Of a DNA stretch of 20,697 nt, positions 171 through 20,570 are shown one piece after another. Both the position numbers and the translations under genes were made by a program. Source of the stretch: a virus; the IMG/VR virus record IMGVR_UViG_3300047495_000060, positions 1 through 20,697 of that record; one strand, written 5' to 3'. The notes under the pieces are model-generated. The model saw only the letters and a program-made list of their open reading frames with translations, was not told where the DNA came from and searched no databases. Every line of letters begins with the position of its first letter. Positions within the stretch are counted from its first letter, which is position 1.

Positions 171-1355
171 TCATGTCGCATTTGTTGCGCCTGTCAGGAG
201 CAAATTGGCCGCCATGCGGTCCATGGCGGCATGCCGGTGGCCTCCCCCGATGATCGGGTGGGCATACACCTGTAGAGTCAGGTCGAACTTGCTGTGCCCC
301 AATAGGCTGGCCACGTCCGGCAGTGACATGTGGTTCTCGATCATCCAGCTCGCCGCGAAATGACGCAAGGCGTGGAAGTGGAACTGGTCCCCCTTTTCGT
401 CCCAAAGCCCGGCGTCCCGGAGCAAGGGGTGCCACATCTCCCAGAGGAAGTTCTGCATCTGCCACTTCCCCCCGCCAGCGCGAAAGACGAGATCGCGCTC
501 GTTTTCCACGAAGTACTTGTCGAGCCAATCCTGGAGCAGTTGCACCAGGTGGGGAGGGATCGGCACGTCGCGTTTGCCGGCGGCCGTCTTTGGACCTTTC
601 AGCTCATTGAACATCGTCATGGCGGTCCTGATCCGTAATACTCGGGCCTGCAGGTCGATGCTCTTGCGCGTTAGTCCGAAAATCTCTCCCCGCCGGAGCC
701 CGCAGAACGCCGCCAGGTGAACGGCGCAGCGAACGAGCGAGTGAGCCCGGTAGTGGCCTTTGCGCCGCTTGATTTCGGCGGCCGCAAGGAGGCGGCTGAT
801 CTGCTCGGCCGAGAATGTCCGAATGACCTTTTTGGGAGAAGCCCCCATCTCTCGGCGGTAATCCGCTACGGGCGTCCGCTTACAAAGGCCTCGCCTGACG
901 GCATACTTCTCGATCTGCACCAAGACATCGGTATAGATCGACCTTGTATAGGCGGACCTCTGTGTTCCCTCGGACATATACTTATACCATCCCTCCATGT
1001 CGTTGAAGGTAAGGTCGTTCAAAAGCTTCTTGTTGAAGAAGGGTGTTATGTGCAGCCGGTTGACATACTCGACCTGCGAGTAGCGGCCTTGCCCGATCTT
1101 CTTATCTTCCCATCTTTGGCGCATGTGCTTGATATATTGGTCTGCAATAGCGCGCACGGTTGCGCTCTCGACCCTCGGGATATGCTCACCGCGGGATAAC
1201 TCCGATTCGACCTTGATGCGGTAATTGTCGGCCTCCTTCTTGTAGTTGAACTGCTTCCCTCGGCGCGATCCGCTGGCATCGGTATAGCGGACAATCCAGG
1301 CTTCCCTGGGTGTCCCGTCCGGCGCCGTCCAGCGCCGCTTGCTTGTGCTCGCCAT
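171..1355 (-). CDS. int: Tyrosine recombinase integrase
   Basis: This 394-aa site-specific recombinase is expected to integrate and excise the element. Residues about 18-50 (WIVRYTDASG...) look like the small arm-site-binding N-terminal domain. Residues about 64-165 form the helical core-binding domain. The catalytic domain shows R221 in FCGLRRGEI, a basic beta-hairpin KGPKTAAGKR at about 253-262, H328 and R331 in FHALRH, H354 in LLGHS and the nucleophile Y364 in LQVYAHP. All the expected catalytic residues are therefore visible and the gene looks intact. The ATG at 1353-1355 is preceded on the minus strand by AGGGAAG. The 3' end faces the left junction, as in lambda-type int/att arrangements. 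Upstream lies a repeat-rich 264-base spacer and then the XRE gene in the same direction. Confidence 0.95.
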   Translation of the reverse strand: MASTSKRRWTAPDGTPREAWIVRYTDASGSRRGKQFNYKKEADNYRIKVESELSRGEHIPRVESATVRAIADQYIKHMRQRWEDKKIGQGRYSQVEYVNRLHITPFFNKKLLNDLTFNDMEGWYKYMSEGTQRSAYTRSIYTDVLVQIEKYAVRRGLCKRTPVADYRREMGASPKKVIRTFSAEQISRLLAAAEIKRRKGHYRAHSLVRCAVHLAAFCGLRRGEIFGLTRKSIDLQARVLRIRTAMTMFNELKGPKTAAGKRDVPIPPHLVQLLQDWLDKYFVENERDLVFRAGGGKWQMQNFLWEMWHPLLRDAGLWDEKGDQFHFHALRHFAASWMIENHMSLPDVASLLGHSKFDLTLQVYAHPIIGGGHRHAAMDRMAANLLLTGATNAT

Positions 1356-1444: not shown

Positions 1445-1474
1445 GATGCCAATAGTGCCAATAGTGCCAATAGC
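1445..1474 (-). repeat. Nonanucleotide tandem repeat, block A (int-side copy)
   Basis: On the minus strand this block is about three tandem copies of the 9-mer CTATTGGCA. Its reverse complement matches 6826-6855 at 29 of 30 positions. It sits in the 1356-1619 gap between the XRE stop and the int start. Apart from this block and block B (1540-1591), no gene was seen in that gap. The 9-bp period would add three residues per unit if translated, but the plus-strand frame through it (NSANSANS) runs on antisense to the XRE gene and is not a convincing protein. Confidence 0.85.
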
Positions 1475-1539
1475 ACGGCGAAACCAGAACGAACCGGCTA
1501 CAAACCTGCCTCGCGAACGCTGATCCGCCTCAAACCCCC

Positions 1540-1591
1540 GATGCCAATAGTGCCAATAGTGCCATTAGCAATCCGGAATGATGTGCGCGGC
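1540..1591 (-). repeat. Nonanucleotide repeat with conserved flank, block B (int-side copy)
   Basis: On the minus strand this reads a conserved leader (GCCGCGCACATC, then TTCCGGATTGCTAATGGC) followed by CTATTGGCA-type 9-mers. The plus strand at 6978-7029 is the same 52-base sequence with three substitutions, so 49 of 52 match. The leader is not repetitive, so the two copies must be homologous and not independent slippage products. Confidence 0.88.
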
Positions 1592-1619
1592 AATCGCGAG
1601 GAGCGCCGTGTGATCGCCG

Positions 1620-1856
1620 CTATGGGCCGCTTTCCAGTTCTGCTGCCGGCGGAACGACCCCGCCGTTGTCTAGGAAGACGATCCCAGCCGCCTCGAACGT
1701 TTGCCGAATGACAGTCATGGTCGCGCGATTGGAACTCGTCCGACCGACTTCGAAGCGGTTAATCGTCGGGACGGCAACCTTCGAGTGGTTGGACAGGTCG
1801 ACGGTGCGCCATTGAAGAGCTGCACGGGCCATACGGCATTGAGCAGGGGTGATCAC
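1620..1856 (-). CDS. Small XRE/Cro-type HTH regulator
   Basis: This 78-aa protein begins MITPAQCRMARAALQW and continues through a helix-turn-helix at about residues 18-40, ending in the recognition-helix-like TINRFEVG. The tail IRQTFEAAGIVFLDNGGVV is typical of small one-domain XRE proteins common in alphaproteobacteria. Position suggests it is the element's repressor. It is divergent from the rightward early operon (2008 onward), shares a palindromic control region with it and lies directly upstream of int on the same strand. It could instead be a Cro-like or excision-control protein. No cleavage or oligomerisation domain is present, so a partner protein or the ImmA/IrrE-type peptidase at 8638 might control it. 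Confidence 0.85.
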   Translation of the reverse strand: MITPAQCRMARAALQWRTVDLSNHSKVAVPTINRFEVGRTSSNRATMTVIRQTFEAAGIVFLDNGGVVPPAAELESGP

Positions 1857-1858
1857 AC

Positions 1859-1926
1859 GCTAGTTCTATAATCTTCTAGCTGTTGACGAAAGCCACATCG
1901 GCTACTAATCCTGTAGCCGCAGGATT
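1859..1926 (+). promoter_or_regulatory. Divergent control region: promoter and overlapping palindromes
   Basis: A rightward sigma70-like promoter is visible: TTGACG at 1883-1888, a 17-base spacer, then TAATCC at 1906-1911. Three inverted repeats overlap it. GCTAG...CTAGC has arms at 1859-1863 and 1876-1880. GCTAC...GTAGC is at 1901-1905 and 1913-1917. AATCCTG/CAGGATT is at 1907-1913 and 1920-1926. The last two sit on the -10 region, where a bound XRE dimer would block RNA polymerase. The operators are assigned by symmetry and position only. Confidence 0.55.
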
Positions 1927-2007
1927 ATTCTATGATCATGCGGCCGAACGAAGTGTTGGAAGCACCTCGCCCGGCCTAACCACAACCGCTCTCCGAAGGA
2001 GCAGGCT

Positions 2008-3225
2008 ATGGCTGAGCACGCCCATATCACGGGCCTTGCGCCCAGAAGAGTCCCTACGTTCGTCGGTCCGGACGAAAGAAGAATCGGGCTGATCCCGATC
2101 TCGGAAATCATCGAAGCCGCAATCTCCCGCATCGCAAGAAGATGCGGCTTCCATCCCGAAGGCTCCGTTTCGCCGACCCCCGCACCTCCACTCCCGCCGC
2201 GGCTTCGCCCGCTGGCGGGACCTTTGGCCGCCGCTGCGGCGGCTGGGGATGCTGTCCAGGCTCGTTGGCCAAAGACGTTGTTCCCGCCTGGCCAGCATCC
2301 CTGCGATCAGCCTGGCGACGGCGGAGCCAATCCGCCCCGTCCACCGCGGAAAAATCCGCCCCGGCCGCCGCGTAAAGACAAACCACCACCTTCGAACCCC
2401 TGTCCAGAGTCTCCAGCTCGATCGTCAGCCCCTCGGCCAGGGGCTTCGGGCGCGCCCGGCCCTTGCCCCCCGGCCGGCGCAGTGCCGGCGGCGCTCGATG
2501 CGAGATATGTCGCGGCAATGGGCACTCCCCCCGCTGTCAGGTTCCGGCAGCCTCTTCCCGGCGGAGGCTGGCGGACGATCACCGGGCTGCTGCTGGGCGA
2601 GATGCATGCGCGCGGGCAGTTCCATCACTATCGAGCGCTGGCTGCTGGCGTCGTCTACCTCCTGCCGCGGGATTGGGTCGTCGGAGGACCAGGCCAAGAC
2701 ATCGCCCGGGCGGGCCTCACGGCGCCCTTGGCCGGGTTGCCACACCTGAGCCCGCCTTCGTCGGACGAGGTTATTCCTCCCACCCGGCGCGGCCTTCTCT
2801 GCGCCGCCGCCCTGACGGCTGCATTGCCGCTGAAGGCTTCGGCGCGCGCTGCCTTCGGCGTTCGATCGGCGGCCGAGGGAGCGTCCAACGATCCGCCGCG
2901 TGACGCTGATCTGATCGCGGCCTGCAACGAATATCTCCGCATCGAGCGGGCATTTGACGCCCATTGCAGGGACGTTCCGGGCGACATCGAGGATGACGAT
3001 CCTGCGGTTTCGATGCTCCTCCCGCTGCGGGAGCTGACGGAGGTCATCGTCGCCTCCCGCGCCGTCACAGCCGAGGGCCATCTGGCCCGCGCCCGATGCG
3101 CTGCGTTTCACACCCTGCCAGGTTCCCTGGCCTGTCGCGACAATCCGGCTGGTGGTCGGGAAAGTCGGTTCCGAGCCGCCGCTCTTCGGGACCTGGTACA
3201 TGCCGAAAGGGGGGACGATGCATGA
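2008..3225 (+). CDS. Uncharacterised ORF, first of early operon; possible fusion with internal Tat-like signal
   Basis: This is a 405-aa open frame with a good ribosome site (AAGGAG, 7 bases before ATG 2008). It is uneven. Residues 1-52 look like a normal N-terminus. About 53-165 is proline-rich, with a doubled NPPRPPRK repeat and weak third-position GC bias. About 165-245 (VRFRQPLPGGGWRTITGLLL...) has good codon bias. A twin-arginine-like stretch TRRGLLCAAALTAALP begins near residue 257 and is followed by an acidic helical domain. A signal in the middle of a protein is odd. The true start may be internal (e.g. ATG 2518 or a TTG near 2730), or two genes may be fused. The 3' end is well supported because its stop overlaps the next start (ATGA). 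No function can be assigned. Confidence 0.5.
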   Translation: MAEHAHITGLAPRRVPTFVGPDERRIGLIPISEIIEAAISRIARRCGFHPEGSVSPTPAPPLPPRLRPLAGPLAAAAAAGDAVQARWPKTLFPPGQHPCDQPGDGGANPPRPPRKNPPRPPRKDKPPPSNPCPESPARSSAPRPGASGAPGPCPPAGAVPAALDARYVAAMGTPPAVRFRQPLPGGGWRTITGLLLGEMHARGQFHHYRALAAGVVYLLPRDWVVGGPGQDIARAGLTAPLAGLPHLSPPSSDEVIPPTRRGLLCAAALTAALPLKASARAAFGVRSAAEGASNDPPRDADLIAACNEYLRIERAFDAHCRDVPGDIEDDDPAVSMLLPLRELTEVIVASRAVTAEGHLARARCAAFHTLPGSLACRDNPAGGRESRFRAAALRDLVHAERGDDA

Positions 3226-3728
3226 GATACCTCCCGCGTCGCCGCGACTTCTTGGCTTTCACGGCGGGTGCCGCGGCAGCCAAGGCCGCCCTGCCGTTGC
3301 CCGCGAAGGCCGACTCAGAACCGGACGTTCAGGCGCTATGGCAGCGCTATCTTGGCGCCTTTCGCGAAGCGAAGAAGGCGAGCCGCGCGGGCGAAGAACT
3401 CAGGGACGCGCTTGTTGCCCAGTATGGCGACCCTTGGGGCCGCAACAGGGCGCGCGCCCTGTGGGGGCGCGACCCACGCTACCCGATCCTCGTGGCGCTG
3501 AACGAGGAAAGCAACCGGATCGAAATTGGCCGCGTGGACCGGCTCGACGAGATGATGCGGTGCCCCTCCCAGCGCATCGCCGACCTTCGCGTGAAGCTAG
3601 CAGCGGTGCTGGGCGAGTGGCGTCAGAACGGGGAGATCGTCTCGGAAGAGTGCGAATATCACCTGACCCTCGCTTTCCTGCTGATGCAGGATGCCGAGAC
3701 GGTGCTCGGTCCCGTGGAGGTCGCATGA
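3222..3728 (+). CDS. Small protein with Tat-like N-terminus, unknown function
   Basis: This 168-aa protein starts MRYLPRRRDFLAFTAGAAAAK, a twin-arginine-type signal (RRRDFLA) with a short hydrophobic stretch and an Ala-rich cleavage region near residue 30. The rest (PDVQALWQRYLGAF..., ending DAETVLGPVEVA) is charged and helical. The ATG at 3222 overlaps the upstream stop (ATGA) and follows an AAAGGGGGG ribosome site. Similar small proteins annotated only as twin-arginine-signal proteins occur in Acetobacteraceae-type genomic islands (recollection, not checked). The preceding ORF's C-terminal half has the same layout, so the two may be distant relatives. Why an apparent export signal should occur in a replication operon is unclear. 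The RR stretch could instead be cytoplasmic and DNA-binding. Confidence 0.78.
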   Translation: MRYLPRRRDFLAFTAGAAAAKAALPLPAKADSEPDVQALWQRYLGAFREAKKASRAGEELRDALVAQYGDPWGRNRARALWGRDPRYPILVALNEESNRIEIGRVDRLDEMMRCPSQRIADLRVKLAAVLGEWRQNGEIVSEECEYHLTLAFLLMQDAETVLGPVEVA

Positions 3729-4183
3729 GCGCCATCGCAGTACCAGCGATGGCCACGGCGGCTGTTCGAAGCCAACCCCGCCTTGCATCCGGCTACGGTG
3801 GCTTGCGTGCTGCCGCTCCTCGGGGCCCGATCGATCAGGCCGAGCAGGCGAGCCATGCCATGCTGGACCGAACTCTTGCCCTCGCAGTGATCTATCTCGC
3901 CATTGCGGACCTGACGGCCGGTCCCGCGCGGCGTGGGTCATCGCGAGGGGTCACAGAGGCCGAACGGCAGGATGCCCACCGATTCCTGTTCGCTGAACGC
4001 GGTCCCTGGCACACCGCCAGGCAGGCATGGTGCTTGGCCGCGGGGATAGCCCCCGAGTGGCTCGACCGTCATCTTGCGCAAGCCTCCTGTCGGAGACCTC
4101 TTGCCCCAGCTCGGGCGGTAGCACCCGAAGGTCGGACCGGTCCGGCTGCGGCGGCGCCCTCTCCCACGTTCCAGTCTGCGTGA
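3725..4183 (+). CDS. Small helical protein, uncharacterised
   Basis: This is a 152-aa protein. The start was taken at ATG 3725 because it overlaps the previous stop as ATGA. The frame is open further upstream (to 3152), but that part is antisense-like shadow of the neighbouring gene. Residues about 38-65 (AEQASHAMLDRTLALAVIYLAIADL) form a helix, followed by EAERQDAHRFLFAERGPWHTARQAWCLAAGIAPEWLDRHL. The latter recalls short proteins of alphaproteobacterial prophages in which a W/F-rich segment precedes an AG(I/L)xPxxL motif. The C-terminus is Ala/Pro-rich and low in complexity. The function is unknown. Its place between the Tat-like proteins and the primase suggests an early phage role. Confidence 0.7.
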   Translation: MSAIAVPAMATAAVRSQPRLASGYGGLRAAAPRGPIDQAEQASHAMLDRTLALAVIYLAIADLTAGPARRGSSRGVTEAERQDAHRFLFAERGPWHTARQAWCLAAGIAPEWLDRHLAQASCRRPLAPARAVAPEGRTGPAAAAPSPTFQSA

Positions 4184-4253
4184 ACCGGTTCCGGGGCGGC
4201 GCCCGATATGCGCCGCCCCGTTTCCTGAAGCCGCGGGTTCCGATCGAGGTCTC

Positions 4254-5273
4254 ATGATCGAATACGAAGCCGATCCATTCGGCCTGACGGTGATCCGTGC
4301 ACACGGCCGCCGGCTGTCCAAACTCATCCGGCCGGATGGCGCGGGCGAGAGCTATGACCAGGTGCGCACCGTCGACCTGCATTCCACGGCGGCCGGTGAT
4401 CTCCGCCAGCTCGCCGCGCTTCTGCATCGCCTGGCGCAGCGGCCGGACTGTGCCGTTGTCCGCGGTGTCATTGCCGACCCACGCCGCACGCGCGGCGTGC
4501 GCCGGCTTCTGCATCGCGACCCTGAATCCGGCGATATGCCCACGCTGCGCGATGCGGCCCGATCGTGGATTGCGTTGGACCTCGACGGCATGCCGCTGCC
4601 GATCGGCACCGACCCGCGCGACCTGGTTGCATGCGGCGAGGCCGCGCGCCGCGCGCTGCCGGCGGCGTTCCACGATGCCGCCTGCGTCATCGCCGCGACA
4701 GCCAGCCATTGCATCAAACCAGGCGCCCGGCTCCGGCTGTGGGTCCACCTGTCCCGGCCGCTCGATAGTTCGGCGTGCCAGCGCTGGCTGCGCGGCGCGC
4801 CGGCATGCGATCCATCCACCCTTCGGGCGGCGCAGATCATCTACACGGCGGCGCCCCTGTTCGTGGGGTGCATTGATCCGCTCCCTAGCCGCCTGGCGCA
4901 TCTTCCTGGTCATGCAACTGTCGTTGTTCCATCGCAGGCGGCGCTGGCGCCTCCACCGCCGGGCAGCTCTCCGGCACAGTGCCTCACCGTGCCGCCGGAC
5001 AGCCGCTATGCCCTTGCAGCGCTAAGCCGGGCAGCGATCGCCATCGCCACGGCCGGCGTGGACACACGCCATGCGACGGCTGTCGGGGAGGCTTGGGGCC
5101 TGGCGCGTTTGGTTCGTGCAGGCGTGCTGACCGAAGGCGAGGTCGTTCGCGTCGTAGACGGCGCGCTCCAACAGGCGGGAAAGCCCGCTGGAGAGGGCGC
5201 CGCGGTGGCGCAATGGGCCATCCGCCGCCGATCGGACGCGGGGCCGTCCGGGCATCGTGGAAACGCAGGCTGA
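4254..5273 (+). CDS. Archaeo-eukaryotic primase-like replication protein
   Basis: This 339-aa protein is probably the element's primase. Residues 105-111 (WIALDLD) give the hydrophobic-D-h-D metal-binding motif (D109, D111) of archaeo-eukaryotic-type primases. RLWVHLSRPLD places H165 where the second (sxH-like) motif is expected, and the FVGCIDP segment near 203-209 resembles the third. The C-terminal 100 residues, including ATAGVDTRHATAVGEAWGLARLV, are helical and may contact the helicase-like partner. Its TGA overlaps the ATG of the DUF3987 gene (TGATG), a pairing seen in many phage-like islands. ATG 4254 follows a weak GAGG. The assignment rests on motif recognition. A structural comparison with PrimPol-type domains would test it. 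Confidence 0.72.
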   Translation: MIEYEADPFGLTVIRAHGRRLSKLIRPDGAGESYDQVRTVDLHSTAAGDLRQLAALLHRLAQRPDCAVVRGVIADPRRTRGVRRLLHRDPESGDMPTLRDAARSWIALDLDGMPLPIGTDPRDLVACGEAARRALPAAFHDAACVIAATASHCIKPGARLRLWVHLSRPLDSSACQRWLRGAPACDPSTLRAAQIIYTAAPLFVGCIDPLPSRLAHLPGHATVVVPSQAALAPPPPGSSPAQCLTVPPDSRYALAALSRAAIAIATAGVDTRHATAVGEAWGLARLVRAGVLTEGEVVRVVDGALQQAGKPAGEGAAVAQWAIRRRSDAGPSGHRGNAG

Positions 5274-6820
5274 TGCCGCCAGACGGTGACCACAAGCCCG
5301 GTACGGATCCTCGCGGTTTCGCGGCGGAAGCACTCGCCCGGGCCAGTGCGATCACGGCGCCTGCGCCGTGGCCGCAGATCGATCCAAGCTGGGCCACGGT
5401 GCAGCTCCTGCCGCCCCCGCCGCTCCCGCTGCATCTGTTCCCCGCGGCTTGGGCGCAGTGGATCACCAGCGCCGCCGAGGAGGCATCGGCGCCGCCCGAT
5501 TTCGTCGCCGCGGCCTTGTTGGGAACGGTGGGAGCGACGATCGGCAATGCCCGCTGGGCGTCGCCATGGCCGGGCTGGCGTGAACCCCCCACGCTGAACG
5601 TGGCGTGTGTCGGCCTTCCCTCATCGGGAAAGTCCCCCGCGATCGATAGGGTGGCCGAGCCCCTGGGCGATTTGCAGGCGGAGTTGAACGAGGATTGGGC
5701 TGAGCGGCAGCGGGCATTTCGCGGCGCGAAGGTCGCGGCCGAGGAAAGGGCCGCAGCGTGGAAGTCCGACGTCAAGGAAGCGATACGCCTGCGGCACGCG
5801 CCACCGGAGGAACCGGACAGCGCGGCGCCCCCCGAGCCGGCCGCGCGCCGCCGCGTCATCAGCACGGACCCGACCGTCGAACGCGCCGCCAGGTTATCGG
5901 CCGAGAACCCTCGCGGATTGCTGCTGCTGCGCGATGAGCTGGCGGGCTGGATCACGGGAATGGATCGCTACAGCAGCGCGGCCGGAGCCGATCGGGCGTT
6001 CTGGCTTGAGGCCTATGGCGGGCGCCGCTGGGCACCTGACAGGGTGAAGGATGAAGGCAATCCGATCGAGGTCCCTCATCTCACCTGGGGCATCCTCGGC
6101 GGCATTCAGCCCGGACGAGTTTCCTCCCTTCTGACCAGCGGCGATGACGACGGACTGTCCGCACGTTTCCTCTACGTGTGGCCGGCCTCGCGGCGGCCGA
6201 CACGGCCGCGCGGGATCGGATTTCCTGGCTACCTGCTCAAGTTGCTGCGCCGGCTTCGCTCGCTGCCCTGGGACGGCCCGGAGCCGGTCACGATGCCCTT
6301 CACGGAGGAGGCAGCGTGCGCGCTGCAGGACTGGCGCGAGCGGGTTGCCGATATGGAACAAACCGCCGCGGGCCTCTTTCTGTCCTGGCTCGGCAAGACG
6401 CCAGGGTTTCTGGTGCGCCTCGCGCTGATCTTCGAGCACCTGGCTTGGCGGGACGGCGCGGGGCCGCCGGCTTCGATCGGCCTCGAATCGGTCGGCCGGG
6501 CGCTCGGCTTTCTGGCCGATTACGCGCTGCCGATGGCACAGCGGACGTTCGGCGACGGCCTGTTGCCTGAGGCGGAGCGAGATGCCCACACGCTGGCCCG
6601 ATGGCTTCTCGCGAAGCGGCCACTTCCCGAACTGGTGAATGCGCGCCAGCTCCGCCGCCAGGAAGGCGCCCCGGCCATTCCAACGGCGCCGCGGATCAAC
6701 GCGGCCTTGGAGGAGCTGTCCGAGCTGGGATGGGTGCGGGCAGCCCCAGGCCGCGACGGGGCGGGCGGCCGGCCGCGAGCGGACTGGGCGGTAAACCCCA
6801 ACCTGCTTGCTGCATCATGA
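5273..6820 (+). CDS. DUF3987 P-loop protein (primase/helicase-associated)
   Basis: This 515-aa protein is taken from ATG 5273, whose A overlaps the primase stop. The frame extends upstream, but only antisense or within the primase gene. It has a Walker A motif GLPSSGKS at 114-121 and a Walker B-like LLLLRDE at 216-222. The diagnostic DUF3987 block follows: DRYSSAAGADRAFWLEAYGG near 231-250, then ILGGIQPGRVSSLL and the arginine-bearing DDGLSARFLYVWP. A winged-helix-like C-terminus (INAALEELSELGWV near 480) ends the protein. DUF3987 proteins occur in phages and islands, commonly beside primases, and are thought to be replicative ATPases, although the family remains poorly characterised. The gene looks intact. 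No strong terminator was seen after it; repeat block A begins 6 bases downstream. Confidence 0.88.
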   Translation: MPPDGDHKPGTDPRGFAAEALARASAITAPAPWPQIDPSWATVQLLPPPPLPLHLFPAAWAQWITSAAEEASAPPDFVAAALLGTVGATIGNARWASPWPGWREPPTLNVACVGLPSSGKSPAIDRVAEPLGDLQAELNEDWAERQRAFRGAKVAAEERAAAWKSDVKEAIRLRHAPPEEPDSAAPPEPAARRRVISTDPTVERAARLSAENPRGLLLLRDELAGWITGMDRYSSAAGADRAFWLEAYGGRRWAPDRVKDEGNPIEVPHLTWGILGGIQPGRVSSLLTSGDDDGLSARFLYVWPASRRPTRPRGIGFPGYLLKLLRRLRSLPWDGPEPVTMPFTEEAACALQDWRERVADMEQTAAGLFLSWLGKTPGFLVRLALIFEHLAWRDGAGPPASIGLESVGRALGFLADYALPMAQRTFGDGLLPEAERDAHTLARWLLAKRPLPELVNARQLRRQEGAPAIPTAPRINAALEELSELGWVRAAPGRDGAGGRPRADWAVNPNLLAAS

Positions 6821-6825
6821 CCTCG

Positions 6826-6855
6826 GCTATTGGCACTATTGGCACTATTGGTATC
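6826..6855 (+). repeat. Nonanucleotide tandem repeat, block A (DUF3987-side copy)
   Basis: Three CTATTGGCA-type 9-mers begin six bases after the DUF3987 stop, matching the reverse complement of 1445-1474 at 29 of 30 positions. The gap 6821-7081 holds only this block and block B. It lies between convergent genes, so it cannot be a promoter for either. Confidence 0.85.
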
Positions 6856-6977
6856 GCGTCTCTGTCCAGAGAGGGTTGCTTTTCTCGGCCCGCTGCGATG
6901 GCAGACGAGCTACCCACCCCTGGGCGCCCGGGGGCTGGAGGTCTCCAAGACTTCATCCGATATCCCGCCGATCGGCT

Positions 6978-7029
6978 GCCGCGCATATCGTTCCGGATTG
7001 CTAATGGCACTATTGGCGCTATTGGCATC
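6978..7029 (+). repeat. Nonanucleotide repeat with conserved flank, block B (DUF3987-side copy)
   Basis: This 52-base copy of the 1540-1591 block lies in the opposite orientation, with three substitutions. It contains the unique leader TTCCGGATTGCTAATGGC and then 9-mers ending TTGGCATC. About 120 bases separate blocks A and B here, against about 65 in the int-side pair, so the blocks were conserved while the spacer was not. Confidence 0.88.
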
Positions 7030-9789: not shown

Positions 9790-10143
9790 CGACGCGGTGC
9801 AACCTGCACGCGCTGGAAGGGGGAGCGACATGGCAATCGGGAGTTTTGGCAATTTTGGCAATTTTGGCAGAGGGCAATTCGGTGGCCTCTGGCTGCCGTC
9901 TGTGACCGGCATCGGATATCCGGTTCCGGGGCGGCCCCCCGGAGCTGGGGCGAGCCGGCGCCTGGCGCGGTATCCTCGCAGGACCTGCGGGCGGGAAATG
10001 TTGCGTTCGGGCCCTCAGGAGGACTATATACCCCCTGCGGGCGACGGATCGGCTGATAAAGACAGCGCCCCCTGGCGGGATAAAACCCGTAGTCGCGCAA
10101 CGCGGCTCGCAAGCAGTAGCCGGGTGACTTACCTACCGCTGCC
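9790..10143. other. Gene-free convergent region with repeats
   Basis: No credible gene was found between the ImmA/IrrE stop and the hairpin at 10144. It holds the TTTTGGCAA repeats (9844-9870) and two similar segments, CCCCCTGCGGGCGACGG near 10031 and CCCCCTGGCGGG near 10069. The repeats could be read as the N-terminus of an ORF, since ATG 9830 has a GGGAG in front and gives MAIGSFGNFGNFGRG. The frame then runs antisense through the next gene with no protein-like character. Confidence 0.5.
9844..9870 (+). repeat. Nonanucleotide tandem repeat TTTTGGCAA x3 (third locus)
   Basis: There are three tandem 9-mers, TTTTGGCAA, TTTTGGCAA and TTTTGGCAG. They share the core TTGGCA and the exact 9-bp period with blocks A and B, but have a different two-base linker and no similar flanks. 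Like the 6826 block, this one lies just after the end of a rightward operon and before a convergent gene. Confidence 0.85.
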
Positions 10144-10903: not shown

Positions 10904-11464
10904 TCACGCTGCGGCGGCCGACTCCGCCTTGAGTTCCGCCCATTCGCCTTCGGTCAGAGGCTCGGCGTTGAAGGCAGGGTGCGTCTCCCAAGACTCGTGC
11001 CCGGGCGGCGGCGGGAAATCCATATCGAGGCAGGTTGCGCTCGCCAGCGTCAGGCGCCGGTACATCTGGGCCACGATCGCGCGCACCTCCTGCTCCGGTA
11101 GGCGAGGCAGCAGCAGCTCGGCCGCCAGAGAGGCGGCTGACTCGTCCGACACGAGATAGAGGATCGCAACCTCGCCGCCGGCGACGCCCTCAAACAACGG
11201 CCGGCGCAGCCGCGGCGGCGTTACCTCGGCTTTGACGTCGCCCGTTACCTCACTCGTTAGCTTTGACCGGGAGGTCACGCGGGTAACGCGGGAGCGCTTG
11301 CCCAGCGAGGCGCCGCTGGCGCTTCTCAGCAGCTCGGCCTGCGACGCTTCCACGTCAACCAGGTTGCCGTTCATCGTGAGTCTGCCCTGATCTTTCCAAA
11401 CGGTGACTGTTTTTCGTGAGACGCCCTTGAGGCGGGCGAACTCGGCCTGTGTGACGTGAGCCAT
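10904..11464 (-). CDS. HTH protein, Nu1-like small terminase subunit candidate
   Basis: This is a 186-aa protein. Its first 45 residues (MAHVTQAEFARLKGVSRKTVTVWKDQGRL...) form a helix-turn-helix of the Nu1/COG4220 type used by small terminase subunits to choose the packaging site. A Val/Thr/Ser-rich linker with repeated VT steps follows (RVTRVTSRSKLTSEVTGDVKAEVT, about 58-82). The C-terminal half is helical (AASLAAELLLPRLPEQEVRAIVAQMYRRL). No large terminase ATPase lies next to it or elsewhere in the window, so it may also be a plain regulator. The ATG at 11462-11464 lies directly against four 7-bp tandem repeats, which supply the only ribosome-site-like AGG. Confidence 0.65.
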   Translation of the reverse strand: MAHVTQAEFARLKGVSRKTVTVWKDQGRLTMNGNLVDVEASQAELLRSASGASLGKRSRVTRVTSRSKLTSEVTGDVKAEVTPPRLRRPLFEGVAGGEVAILYLVSDESAASLAAELLLPRLPEQEVRAIVAQMYRRLTLASATCLDMDFPPPPGHESWETHPAFNAEPLTEGEWAELKAESAAAA

Positions 11465-11467
11465 CGT

Positions 11468-11495
11468 TGTTACCTGTTACCTGTTGCCTGTTACC
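11468..11495 (-). repeat. Heptanucleotide tandem repeat x4 at the small-terminase start
   Basis: There are four contiguous 7-mers, TGTTACC on the plus strand (GGTAACA on the minus), and the third has one A to G change. They begin three bases upstream of the ATG and cover the ribosome-binding region, so copy number would affect translation spacing. GTTACC/GGTAAC also recurs inside the gene around 11219-11290. Confidence 0.88.
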
Positions 11496-19344: not shown

Positions 19345-19536
19345 TCATGGCAGTCTCCTCTGGGTCCAACGCGCCCACCATTCAGCGCGCCGATCGATAC
19401 GCTCGGCGCGGCGCTTCAGCACGCTCTGCATCCATTGGCCGAACATCGCCTGAAGGGGGCACCCCCTGATCCCCGTTGCACCAGTCGCACCGTACAGAGA
19501 ATCTTCCTGGACGTTCGTTATGTCTGCCCGGGCCAT
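19345..19536 (-). CDS. Small ORF coupled to HTH paralogue 1, unknown
   Basis: This 63-aa frame starts at ATG 19534-19536, whose A is shared with the TGA of the upstream HTH gene (TGATG), so translation is probably coupled. It reads MARADITNVQEDSLYGATGA, then CPLQAMFGQWMQSVLKRRAERIDRRAEWWARW. The C-terminal half is an amphipathic basic helix rich in Arg and Trp. No family was recognised. Coupling to a DNA-binding protein suggests a co-regulator or accessory peptide. The coding case rests on the overlap and plausible composition. Confidence 0.5.
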   Translation of the reverse strand: MARADITNVQEDSLYGATGATGIRGCPLQAMFGQWMQSVLKRRAERIDRRAEWWARWTQRRLP

Positions 19537-19772
19537 CAGGCTTGCTCCCGCATATATGGCGCCACACCACGCGCTGCTAACCAGGCACCGAGGCCGGACC
19601 GTGAGGCGCAAATGATCCGCCCCACGCGAAAAATCGGTAGCTCCCCTGTAGCCACTCGATGTTTCGCTTGCCGAACCGTCAAGCCAATGGCTGGAGCAAT
19701 CTCCGCGAGGCCATAGAGGAAGTCGGTTTCTTGGCGGCTAGGCACGACTTCGCTTTGGCTGTCCTTGCGCAT
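19536..19772 (-). CDS. Small HTH DNA-binding protein, tandem paralogue 1
   Basis: This 78-aa protein starts at ATG 19770-19772 with AGGAG 8 bases upstream. The frame is open further up, but this start matches the lengths of the other two copies. Residues 16-66 (TDFLYGLAEIAPAIGLTVRQAKHRVATGELPIF, then RVGRIICASRSGLGAWL) have the excisionase/AlpA-like MerR winged-HTH pattern: helix-turn-helix, then GELP-x-F-x-x-G-R, then a terminal AWL helix. It would bind DNA and act as an excisionase, activator or repressor. It shares this layout with 19882-20118 and 20170-20412, and all three are on the minus strand. Confidence 0.82.
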   Translation of the reverse strand: MRKDSQSEVVPSRQETDFLYGLAEIAPAIGLTVRQAKHRVATGELPIFRVGRIICASRSGLGAWLAARGVAPYMREQA

Positions 19773-19837
19773 GGTGAGTCTCCTGAAGTTTCTGGGTCCA
19801 TCACTGGCCGACCCGGCGACTTTATCGCGCCGCATGA

Positions 19838-19860
19838 GTGAGGCATAGGATAAGCCTCAC
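19838..19860. promoter_or_regulatory. Operator-like palindrome between HTH paralogues 2 and 1
   Basis: GTGAGGC and GCCTCAC, 7-bp perfect arms around 9 bases, lie 20 bases after the stop of paralogue 2 and upstream of paralogue 1. They could be a binding site for one of the HTH proteins or a short attenuating hairpin. Assigned from symmetry and location only. Confidence 0.35.
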
Positions 19861-19881
19861 GGGCCGAAGCGCGACGGAACG

Positions 19882-20118
19882 TCAGGCGCGATCGCCCTCG
19901 CATCCCCTCACACCACGCGCCGCCAGCCAAGCCGCTATGCCGGATCGAGAAGCGCAAGTGGTGTGCCCTATGCGAAACGTGGGAATCTCTTTGGTCGCGA
20001 CACGATGTTTCGTGCGTCGAACCGACAGGCCGAGCACGCGGGCTATTTGAGTAACGCCGTATAGAAGGTCAGTTTCAGGAAGGTCGCATGCCTGTTTGCT
20101 TCTGCTGTCATTTTGCAC
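19882..20118 (-). CDS. Small HTH DNA-binding protein, tandem paralogue 2
   Basis: This 78-aa protein starts at GTG 20116-20118, the only start that keeps the family length; the ribosome site is weak. It reads TDLLYGVTQIARVLGLSVRRTKHRVATKEIPTF, then RIGHTTCASRSGIAAWLAARG. It aligns with paralogue 1 over its whole length, and the genes also resemble each other at nucleotide level. The recognition helix differs (VRRTKHRVA against VRQAKHRVA), so the DNA targets may overlap. A perfect TATAAT lies about 20 bases upstream, so this copy may have its own promoter. Confidence 0.82.
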   Translation of the reverse strand: MQNDSRSKQACDLPETDLLYGVTQIARVLGLSVRRTKHRVATKEIPTFRIGHTTCASRSGIAAWLAARGVRGCEGDRA

Positions 20119-20136
20119 AGTCTGACTCTCTGTAGA

Positions 20137-20142
20137 ATTATA
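20137..20142 (-). promoter_or_regulatory. TATAAT -10 box upstream of HTH paralogue 2
   Basis: On the minus strand a perfect TATAAT lies 19 bases before the GTG start of paralogue 2, in the 51-base gap after paralogue 3. The -35 region 17 bases upstream is poor (TCTCTC-like), so an activator may be required. CTCTC/GAGAG short arms flank the box. Confidence 0.45.
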
Positions 20143-20169
20143 CCCGGCAACAGATTGTGGAGAGAATGG

Positions 20170-20412
20170 TCAGGCGCCGTTGCTCCGGTATTCCCTCGCG
20201 CCACGCTCTACCAACCAGGCCGTGATGCCGGATCGAGAGGCACAAATGATCCTTCCCATGCGGAAAGTCGGGAATTCCCCATTAGCCACTCGATATTGCG
20301 TTTGGATTACAGACAAGCCGAGCGCCCGGCCGATCGCCGCGAGCCCATACAAGAGATCGTTTTCAGAGGTTACGGGCCCCGTCGCCTCGGTCTTCGTCTC
20401 GTGAATTTCCAT
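20170..20412 (-). CDS. Small HTH DNA-binding protein, tandem paralogue 3
   Basis: This protein is 80 aa from ATG 20410-20412 (MEIHETKTEATGPVTSENDL). The frame is open to a GTG at 20565, but that extra part has a much lower GC third position and crosses a strong hairpin. The start that fits the 78-aa paralogues was chosen. The core LLYGLAAIGRALGLSVIQTQYRVANGEFPTF, then RMGRIICASRSGITAWLVERG, matches both other copies. The recognition helix is the most divergent (VIQTQYRVA). It is the first gene of the leftward arm, and two ATGs fall inside an 11-bp tandem repeat at its start. It is possibly the excisionase or an arm-specific activator. Confidence 0.78.
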   Translation of the reverse strand: MEIHETKTEATGPVTSENDLLYGLAAIGRALGLSVIQTQYRVANGEFPTFRMGRIICASRSGITAWLVERGAREYRSNGA

Positions 20413-20430
20413 GTTGCGTCCATGTTGCGT
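20409..20430 (-). repeat. 11-bp tandem duplication spanning the start of HTH paralogue 3
   Basis: CCATGTTGCGT occurs twice with no gap (20409-20419 and 20420-20430). On the minus strand each copy contains an ATG, in different frames because the unit is 11 bases. The inner ATG (20412) begins the paralogue. An 11-bp spacing puts the units on nearly the same face of the helix, as in many protein-binding iterons. Confidence 0.7.
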
Positions 20431-20510
20431 GGCGTCGCCCGCCGCTTCACAGCGGAGGCTGGTTTCGCTCGAATTTGTTGGTTGTTTTGTCCGTGCTTCT
20501 AGATTGGAAG

Positions 20511-20541
20511 AATCAGGCAGTTTTGGCGCAACTGCCTGATT
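20511..20541. terminator. Perfect 12-bp hairpin near the right end
   Basis: AATCAGGCAGTT (20511-20522) and AACTGCCTGATT (20530-20541) form a perfect stem with a 7-base loop, followed on the plus strand by TTCC. It lies about 30 bases inside the right junction and could insulate the element from outside transcription in both directions. The 20413-20570 gap holds nothing else beyond the CACTAGTG palindrome at 20563-20570, which abuts the junction. Confidence 0.6.
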
Positions 20542-20570
20542 TTCCTTGGTTTCTAGACCTGCCACTAGTG

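Follow-up and report, generated by a model that had tools for sequence, protein, structure and literature searches.

A 20.7-kb virus record (IMG/VR IMGVR_UViG_3300047495_000060, positions 1 to 20,697; hereafter the window), itself a fragment, carries arrays of a 9-bp unit at both ends of a replication module that encodes a protein of the DUF3987 family (PF13148). These arrays are probably iterons at the origin of a DUF3987-driven replicon, set out in two separated parts in a layout resembling ori and crr of phage P4. The assignment is drawn from features of the sequences compared here: the position, period and inverted layout of the arrays, co-variation of the unit with the protein, absence of the unit elsewhere in the sampled genomes, and the occurrence of the same split layout in a circular relative.

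Nonamer arrays in the window and beside DUF3987 genes

Four arrays, A and B on the integrase (int) side and A' and B' on the replication side (Table 1), each consist of three head-to-tail units of CTATTGGCA. Tandem Repeats Finder gives a period of 9 and about three copies at each of the four sites, in agreement with the period described in an earlier reading made from the letters of the window alone (the sequence-only reading). The dyad pattern TNTTGGCANTNTTGGCA, allowing at most 2 mismatches, occurs 10 times in the window versus 0.10 times expected from dinucleotide shuffles, and none of 100 shuffles reaches 10. The sequence-only reading had paired A with A' and B with B' in opposite orientation, and alignment to the reverse complements bears this out at 29 of 30 positions for A and 49 of 52 for B, with the int-side copies on the minus strand and the other two on the plus strand, in the order it gave. 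The non-repetitive leader that it ascribed to B is also present, 23 bp long (AATCCGGAATGATGTGCGCGGCA) and common to the B copies only; the A copies have no above-chance similarity outside the arrays. Used as a wider signature, the leader was found in no other viral contig. Two features had been overlooked. Array A' begins 5 bp past the stop codon of the DUF3987 gene (position 6820), and it is this proximity that hints at the nature of the arrays. Furthermore, a fifth array, C, is made of a sister unit, and a short open reading frame (ORF) there reads MAIGSFGNFGNFG. A close sister of the array C unit, TTTTGGCAG, makes an inverted pair after the DUF3987 gene of another locus, L167.

An exact 25-base search of a species-genome collection returned seven places. 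The matches in alphaproteobacteria (Iodidimonas, L009; Rhodospirillales, L010) are three-unit arrays at a DUF3987 gene, as is the only viral match (L016). The remaining five (L011-L015), in other phyla or Burkholderiales, have at least four units, and tblastn finds no DUF3987 gene close to them; they were left aside. DUF3987 loci were then fetched regardless of whether they had arrays; a peptide-pattern scan of single proteins found no close relatives, and an alignment query did find relatives. Complete phages or plasmids with DUF3987 proved few and distant.

Arrays with a 9-bp period recur within about 250 bp of the DUF3987 stop codon in loci from alpha- and gammaproteobacteria, prophages and viral contigs, mostly at +5 to +211. 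Across 41 loci spanning 523 kb, the stretch from -600 to +800 of the stop codon contains 22 arrays with a period of 9 and none with a period of 7, 8, 10, 11, 12 or 13. Within 250 bases 3' of the stop codon, at least five units that keep the 9-bp register are present in 26 of 66 loci, versus 2 of 515 control windows from the same loci and 1 of 1,320 shuffles. At least six are present in four of 18 loci of an independent viral-contig set (among them L174, an element already counted in the first set as L098), versus none of 181 control windows and none of 360 shuffles; period-7 counts in this set are inflated, since 7-mers with 2 mismatches match by chance, and were left unused. Scanning 385 alphaproteobacterial genomes for triple units yielded five sites in three genomes, all five of which adjoin a DUF3987 gene. 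The co-occurrence of the 9-mers with DUF3987 that the sequence-only reading had proposed as a check is therefore seen at many loci, above controls, and the genome scan rules out the contrary outcome it had set, in which the blocks would be a generic repeat of the host unconnected with this type of element. In most fetched loci no same-unit array was seen elsewhere.

The arrays are read in different frames at different loci (GTIGTIG, LAQLAQ, SANSANSAN) and some are non-coding, so that selection acts on the DNA. In L093-L107 and L010 a small ORF that overlaps the DUF3987 stop codon (ATGA/TGATG) often holds the arrays, and encodes tripeptide repeats such as KVAKVAKVA...TLATLATLA.

Half-array spacing and co-variation with the protein

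Most relatives have half-arrays of two to three 9-bp units. An inverted partner array is present in 31 loci, separated from the first by 3-29 bp in 25 cases (median 19), and a pair of three-unit halves has an outer span of 64-79 bp. In the clade with CTATTGGCA-type units, the first half reads GNCAATAG on the DUF3987 strand (GNCAATT in L165) and the second half reads CTATTGNC, as determined from the sequences of L116, L117, L128, L165 and the window. With this polarity kept, the gap between halves grows from 16 bp (L116) and 24 bp (L117) through approximately 0.36 kb (L128) and 2.9 kb (L165) to 5.2 kb in the window, where each half is doubled, first-half polarity lies beside int and second-half polarity follows DUF3987. 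The split halves thus flank the replication module, as the sequence-only reading had noticed. What it took for individual inversion of A and B is then the ordinary polarity of two half-origins that have moved apart, each being doubled.

L165 (IMGVR_UViG_3300042374_001562) is complete and circular, 5,561 bp long, with an exact 127-bp terminal redundancy. It encodes int, an excisionase, primase-DUF3987 and TerS, and its arrays, at 628-660 and 3608-3637, have the same polarity as those of the window. By its sequence, it is a minimal satellite-like replicon. Another near relative, L168, has two like-oriented triplets beside or behind int.

The unit is constant within an element and varies between elements (CTATTGGCA, CTATTGTCA, AACTTTAGC, TATCCGCAA, TTTTGTCAG and others). 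Across 36 loci, the more alike two DUF3987 proteins are, the more alike their units tend to be: Mantel r is 0.41 when the winged-helix region is compared and 0.44 when the motor is, both with P=2e-4. These two parts of the protein are too correlated with one another for this co-variation to separate them.

Predicted helicase structure and comparison with known origins

PF13148 occurs widely in prophages, satellites and islands, yet its annotation assigns it no function. The window protein belongs to the family at 201.6 bits versus a curated cut-off of 27. Its structural model, built with 19 sequences (pLDDT 86, pTM 0.83; an earlier model from 4 sequences was poor, with pLDDT 56), predicts an MCM-like AAA+ motor followed by a C-terminal winged helix at residues 433-507. 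The best match to the model is SsoMCM (Z 18.4, 3.4 A over 263 residues), and Cch (5dgk), the helicase of SCCmec and like DUF3987 a mobile-element protein, is in the Foldseek list. The likeness to MCM comes from the predicted model and not from sequence, as a sequence profile of DUF3987 searched against the PDB gave nothing meaningful. DUF3987 has been predicted to be a helicase, and the C-terminal winged helices of such proteins have been proposed as origin readers (PMC5862659).

The nearest known counterpart is the origin of phage-inducible chromosomal islands (PICIs). In EcCICFT073, an Escherichia coli PICI, the rep-ori segment supports plasmid replication, and deletion of the origin reduces replication (PMC6092414). 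Our reading of that region finds tandem CTGTCTACC iterons with a 9-bp period on each strand. In EcCICFT073 and the Staphylococcus aureus pathogenicity islands, as in the window, iterons lie directly 3' of the primase/helicase initiator gene, in two sets and both orientations. Unlike the window, EcCICFT073 has an initiator of the D5_N/DUF5906/Pox_D5 type rather than DUF3987; PICI iterons flank an AT-rich region (PMC6092414), whereas the window arrays have no AT-rich core; and the window halves are far apart and duplicated. Because that core is missing we do not class the window arrays as a PICI origin, although by analogy they would work like one.

Vibrionaceae phage-inducible chromosomal minimalist islands (PICMIs) lose satellite copy number when the primase gene prim is deleted, and the model used to detect them takes DUF3987 plus DUF5906 as the definition of the primase (PMC10803314). 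They share int, AlpA/excisionase and primase with L165, and differ in integrating at fis; that paper mentions no iterons. L165 has the make-up of a whole PICI or PICMI (int, excisionase/AlpA, primase and TerS, with no virion genes of its own). Unlike PICMIs, the window carries tail genes. It also has TerS, and may come from either a satellite or a damaged prophage.

The split arrangement itself resembles that of phage P4, where a single helicase/primase, alpha, binds two far-apart cis regions, ori and crr, both of them required; each is a cluster of one kind of short repeat, and one cluster lies near the helicase gene. This likeness is one of layout. Iteron plasmids of the RepA/RepE type likewise have direct repeats adjoining the initiator gene and bound by the initiator, but their iterons are approximately 17-22 bp, roughly two helical turns, as opposed to the period of 9 in the window.

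Taken together, these comparisons suggest how such an origin could function. In most relatives it would consist of two inverted half-arrays approximately 19 bp apart, just 3' of the helicase gene, and in the window element and its close relatives the halves would be separated, bracketing the replication module. The winged helix of DUF3987 would read the nonamers, each half-array would gather one oriented hexamer, and the inverted halves would seat two opposed hexamers which, joined in cis or by looping, would melt the DNA and, together with the primase of the element, initiate replication. A more specific version, which we put forward tentatively and consider less likely true than false, makes DUF3987 an initiator-helicase of MCM type in bacteria, two hexamers of which load head-to-head at positions set by two inverted iteron triplets; in the window clade, half-origins kilobases apart would act jointly by looping, the origin working only when both module ends are present. 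The comparison proposes for PF13148 a role, that of an origin-reading MCM-like helicase, along with a DNA target, and gives a rule for locating such origins: 9-bp inverted triplets 3' of the DUF3987 stop codon. The relatives form a natural series with origin halves from approximately 20 bp to more than 5 kb apart, so that action at a distance in replication initiation can be tested directly in elements as small as the 5.56-kb L165.

Table 1. Genes and repeat arrays of the window discussed in the text
Feature	Position	Strand	Basis or description
Tyrosine integrase	171..1355	-	Pfam PF00589 E=9e-26; phrog_1 integrase
Array A, int-side	1445..1474	-	3 x CTATTGGCA read on minus strand, first-half polarity
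Array B, int-side	1540..1591	-	3 x 9 bp + 23-bp leader
Small ORF, helix-turn-helix (HTH)/XRE-type-looking by eye	1620..1856	-	ORF list; between int-side arrays and replication module
Primase-like protein	4254..5273	+	phrog_16950 DNA primase E=1e-12
DUF3987 helicase, proposed initiator, 515 residues	5273..6820	+	PF13148 E=3e-59; AlphaFold2 model MCM-like AAA+ motor
DUF3987 C-terminal winged helix, residues 433-507, proposed iteron reader	6569..6793	+	H-E-H-H-E-E order in model
Array A', replication-side	6826..6855	+	3 x CTATTGGCA, second-half polarity
Array B', replication-side	6978..7029	+	Leader + 3 x 9 bp
Array C	9839..9872	+	3 x TTTTGGCAA, sister unit, just after XRE-ImmA gene

Alternative explanations and other features

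Several observations weigh against reading the arrays as origin iterons. AT content between the window arrays is 0.34-0.38 versus a window mean of 0.36, with no AT-rich tract of the kind found between PICI iterons, and GC skew is uninformative as an origin mark in both L165 and the window. Partial correlations with the unit do not separate the winged helix from the motor (r of 0.10 for the winged helix with the core controlled for, and 0.20 for the core with the winged helix controlled for). Int-side arrays are found, among the loci examined, only in the window, L165 and L168, and L168 lacks an array at its DUF3987 stop codon, as do some other DUF3987 genes, among them that for YfjI in CP4-57 of E. 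coli. The Bartonella and Sulfitobacter plasmids that carry DUF3987 encode their own RepC/RepA and are therefore no proof of DUF3987-driven replication.

The sequence-only reading had offered replication iterons, a binding array for an element protein, or sites for inversion of the 1.5-7.0 kb segment as roles for the blocks. The first two are strongly favored by array position, unit co-variation and the EcCICFT073 architecture. The strongest competitor to origin iterons, though still unlikely, is that the arrays are operators at which a transcription regulator (the HTH-like ORF, the XRE-ImmA protein or a DUF6362-like protein) controls the genes that follow DUF3987 as well as the int operon. They are indeed intergenic and near gene starts, with the start of int 90 bp from array A and the int-side pair between int and the small HTH-like ORF, which has no Pfam or PHROG match; replication proteins, moreover, often autoregulate through their iterons. 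However, arrays trail DUF3987 stop codons whatever comes next, often within the next small ORF, their unit follows the DUF3987 sequence, and the EcCICFT073 origin shares their architecture.

It is rather improbable that the int-side arrays are integrase arm-type or excisionase sites within an attachment region. An array lies close to int in the window, L165 and L168, but the replication-side arrays are far from it, many array-bearing loci have no integrase match nearby, most fetched loci show no second array of the same unit, and the EcCICFT073 arrays are behind the primase gene rather than beside int.

Programmed inversion of the segment between the blocks finds little in its favor beyond the capacity of the inverted B and B' copies (52-53 bp) to recombine, and we consider it very unlikely: L165, the closest relative, has the same orientation and polarity as the window, L128 has the same relative polarity, the copies differ at 3 of 52 (B) and 1 of 30 (A) positions, no dedicated invertase was seen, and elsewhere the arrays are just 19 bp or so apart. 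An RNA-level role, as hairpin, terminator or peptide repeat of the small ORF after DUF3987, has equally poor prospects; closely spaced inverted arrays could fold, and many lie within an ORF overlapping the DUF3987 stop codon, but the replication-side arrays of the window are direct and 122 bp apart and therefore cannot pair, and the arrays are not kept in one reading frame, some being non-coding. Chance, or a functionless short tandem repeat, is just as implausible an account given the enrichment over controls and the five of five triple-unit sites beside DUF3987, despite the longer arrays of such units at unrelated places in other phyla (L011-L015).

Some loci differ from the common pattern. 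After DUF3987 in L173 and L175, a longer inverted repeat of the AGTTGTCACC/AGTTGTCCC type with an approximately 10-bp step replaces the 9-bp arrays, and is possibly a variant origin. In L098, six 74-bp direct repeats (2220-2690), each with ACCCTCAAAACCCTCAAAACC, are located 6.5 kb upstream of DUF3987, and the proposed origin arrays of that gene share the ACCCTCAAAACCCTCAAAACC unit. Type ISP restriction-modification genes occur near DUF3987 in Iodidimonas and in Bartonella, Sulfitobacter and Acinetobacter plasmids (L009, L058, L060, L184), and look as if carried with it by one type of island.

Elsewhere in the window, GTTACC repeats lie at 11216-11292 and 11461-11495, and include a 7-bp tandem, TGTTACC x4, just upstream of the TerS-like gene (10904-11464, minus strand); they are possibly the target of a packaging protein. 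Three small paralogous genes lie in tandem on the minus strand at 19536-20565. All three match phrog_18541, two of the three also match the excisionase/regulator family phrog_66, and they share one 164-nt stretch that is 67-73% alike.

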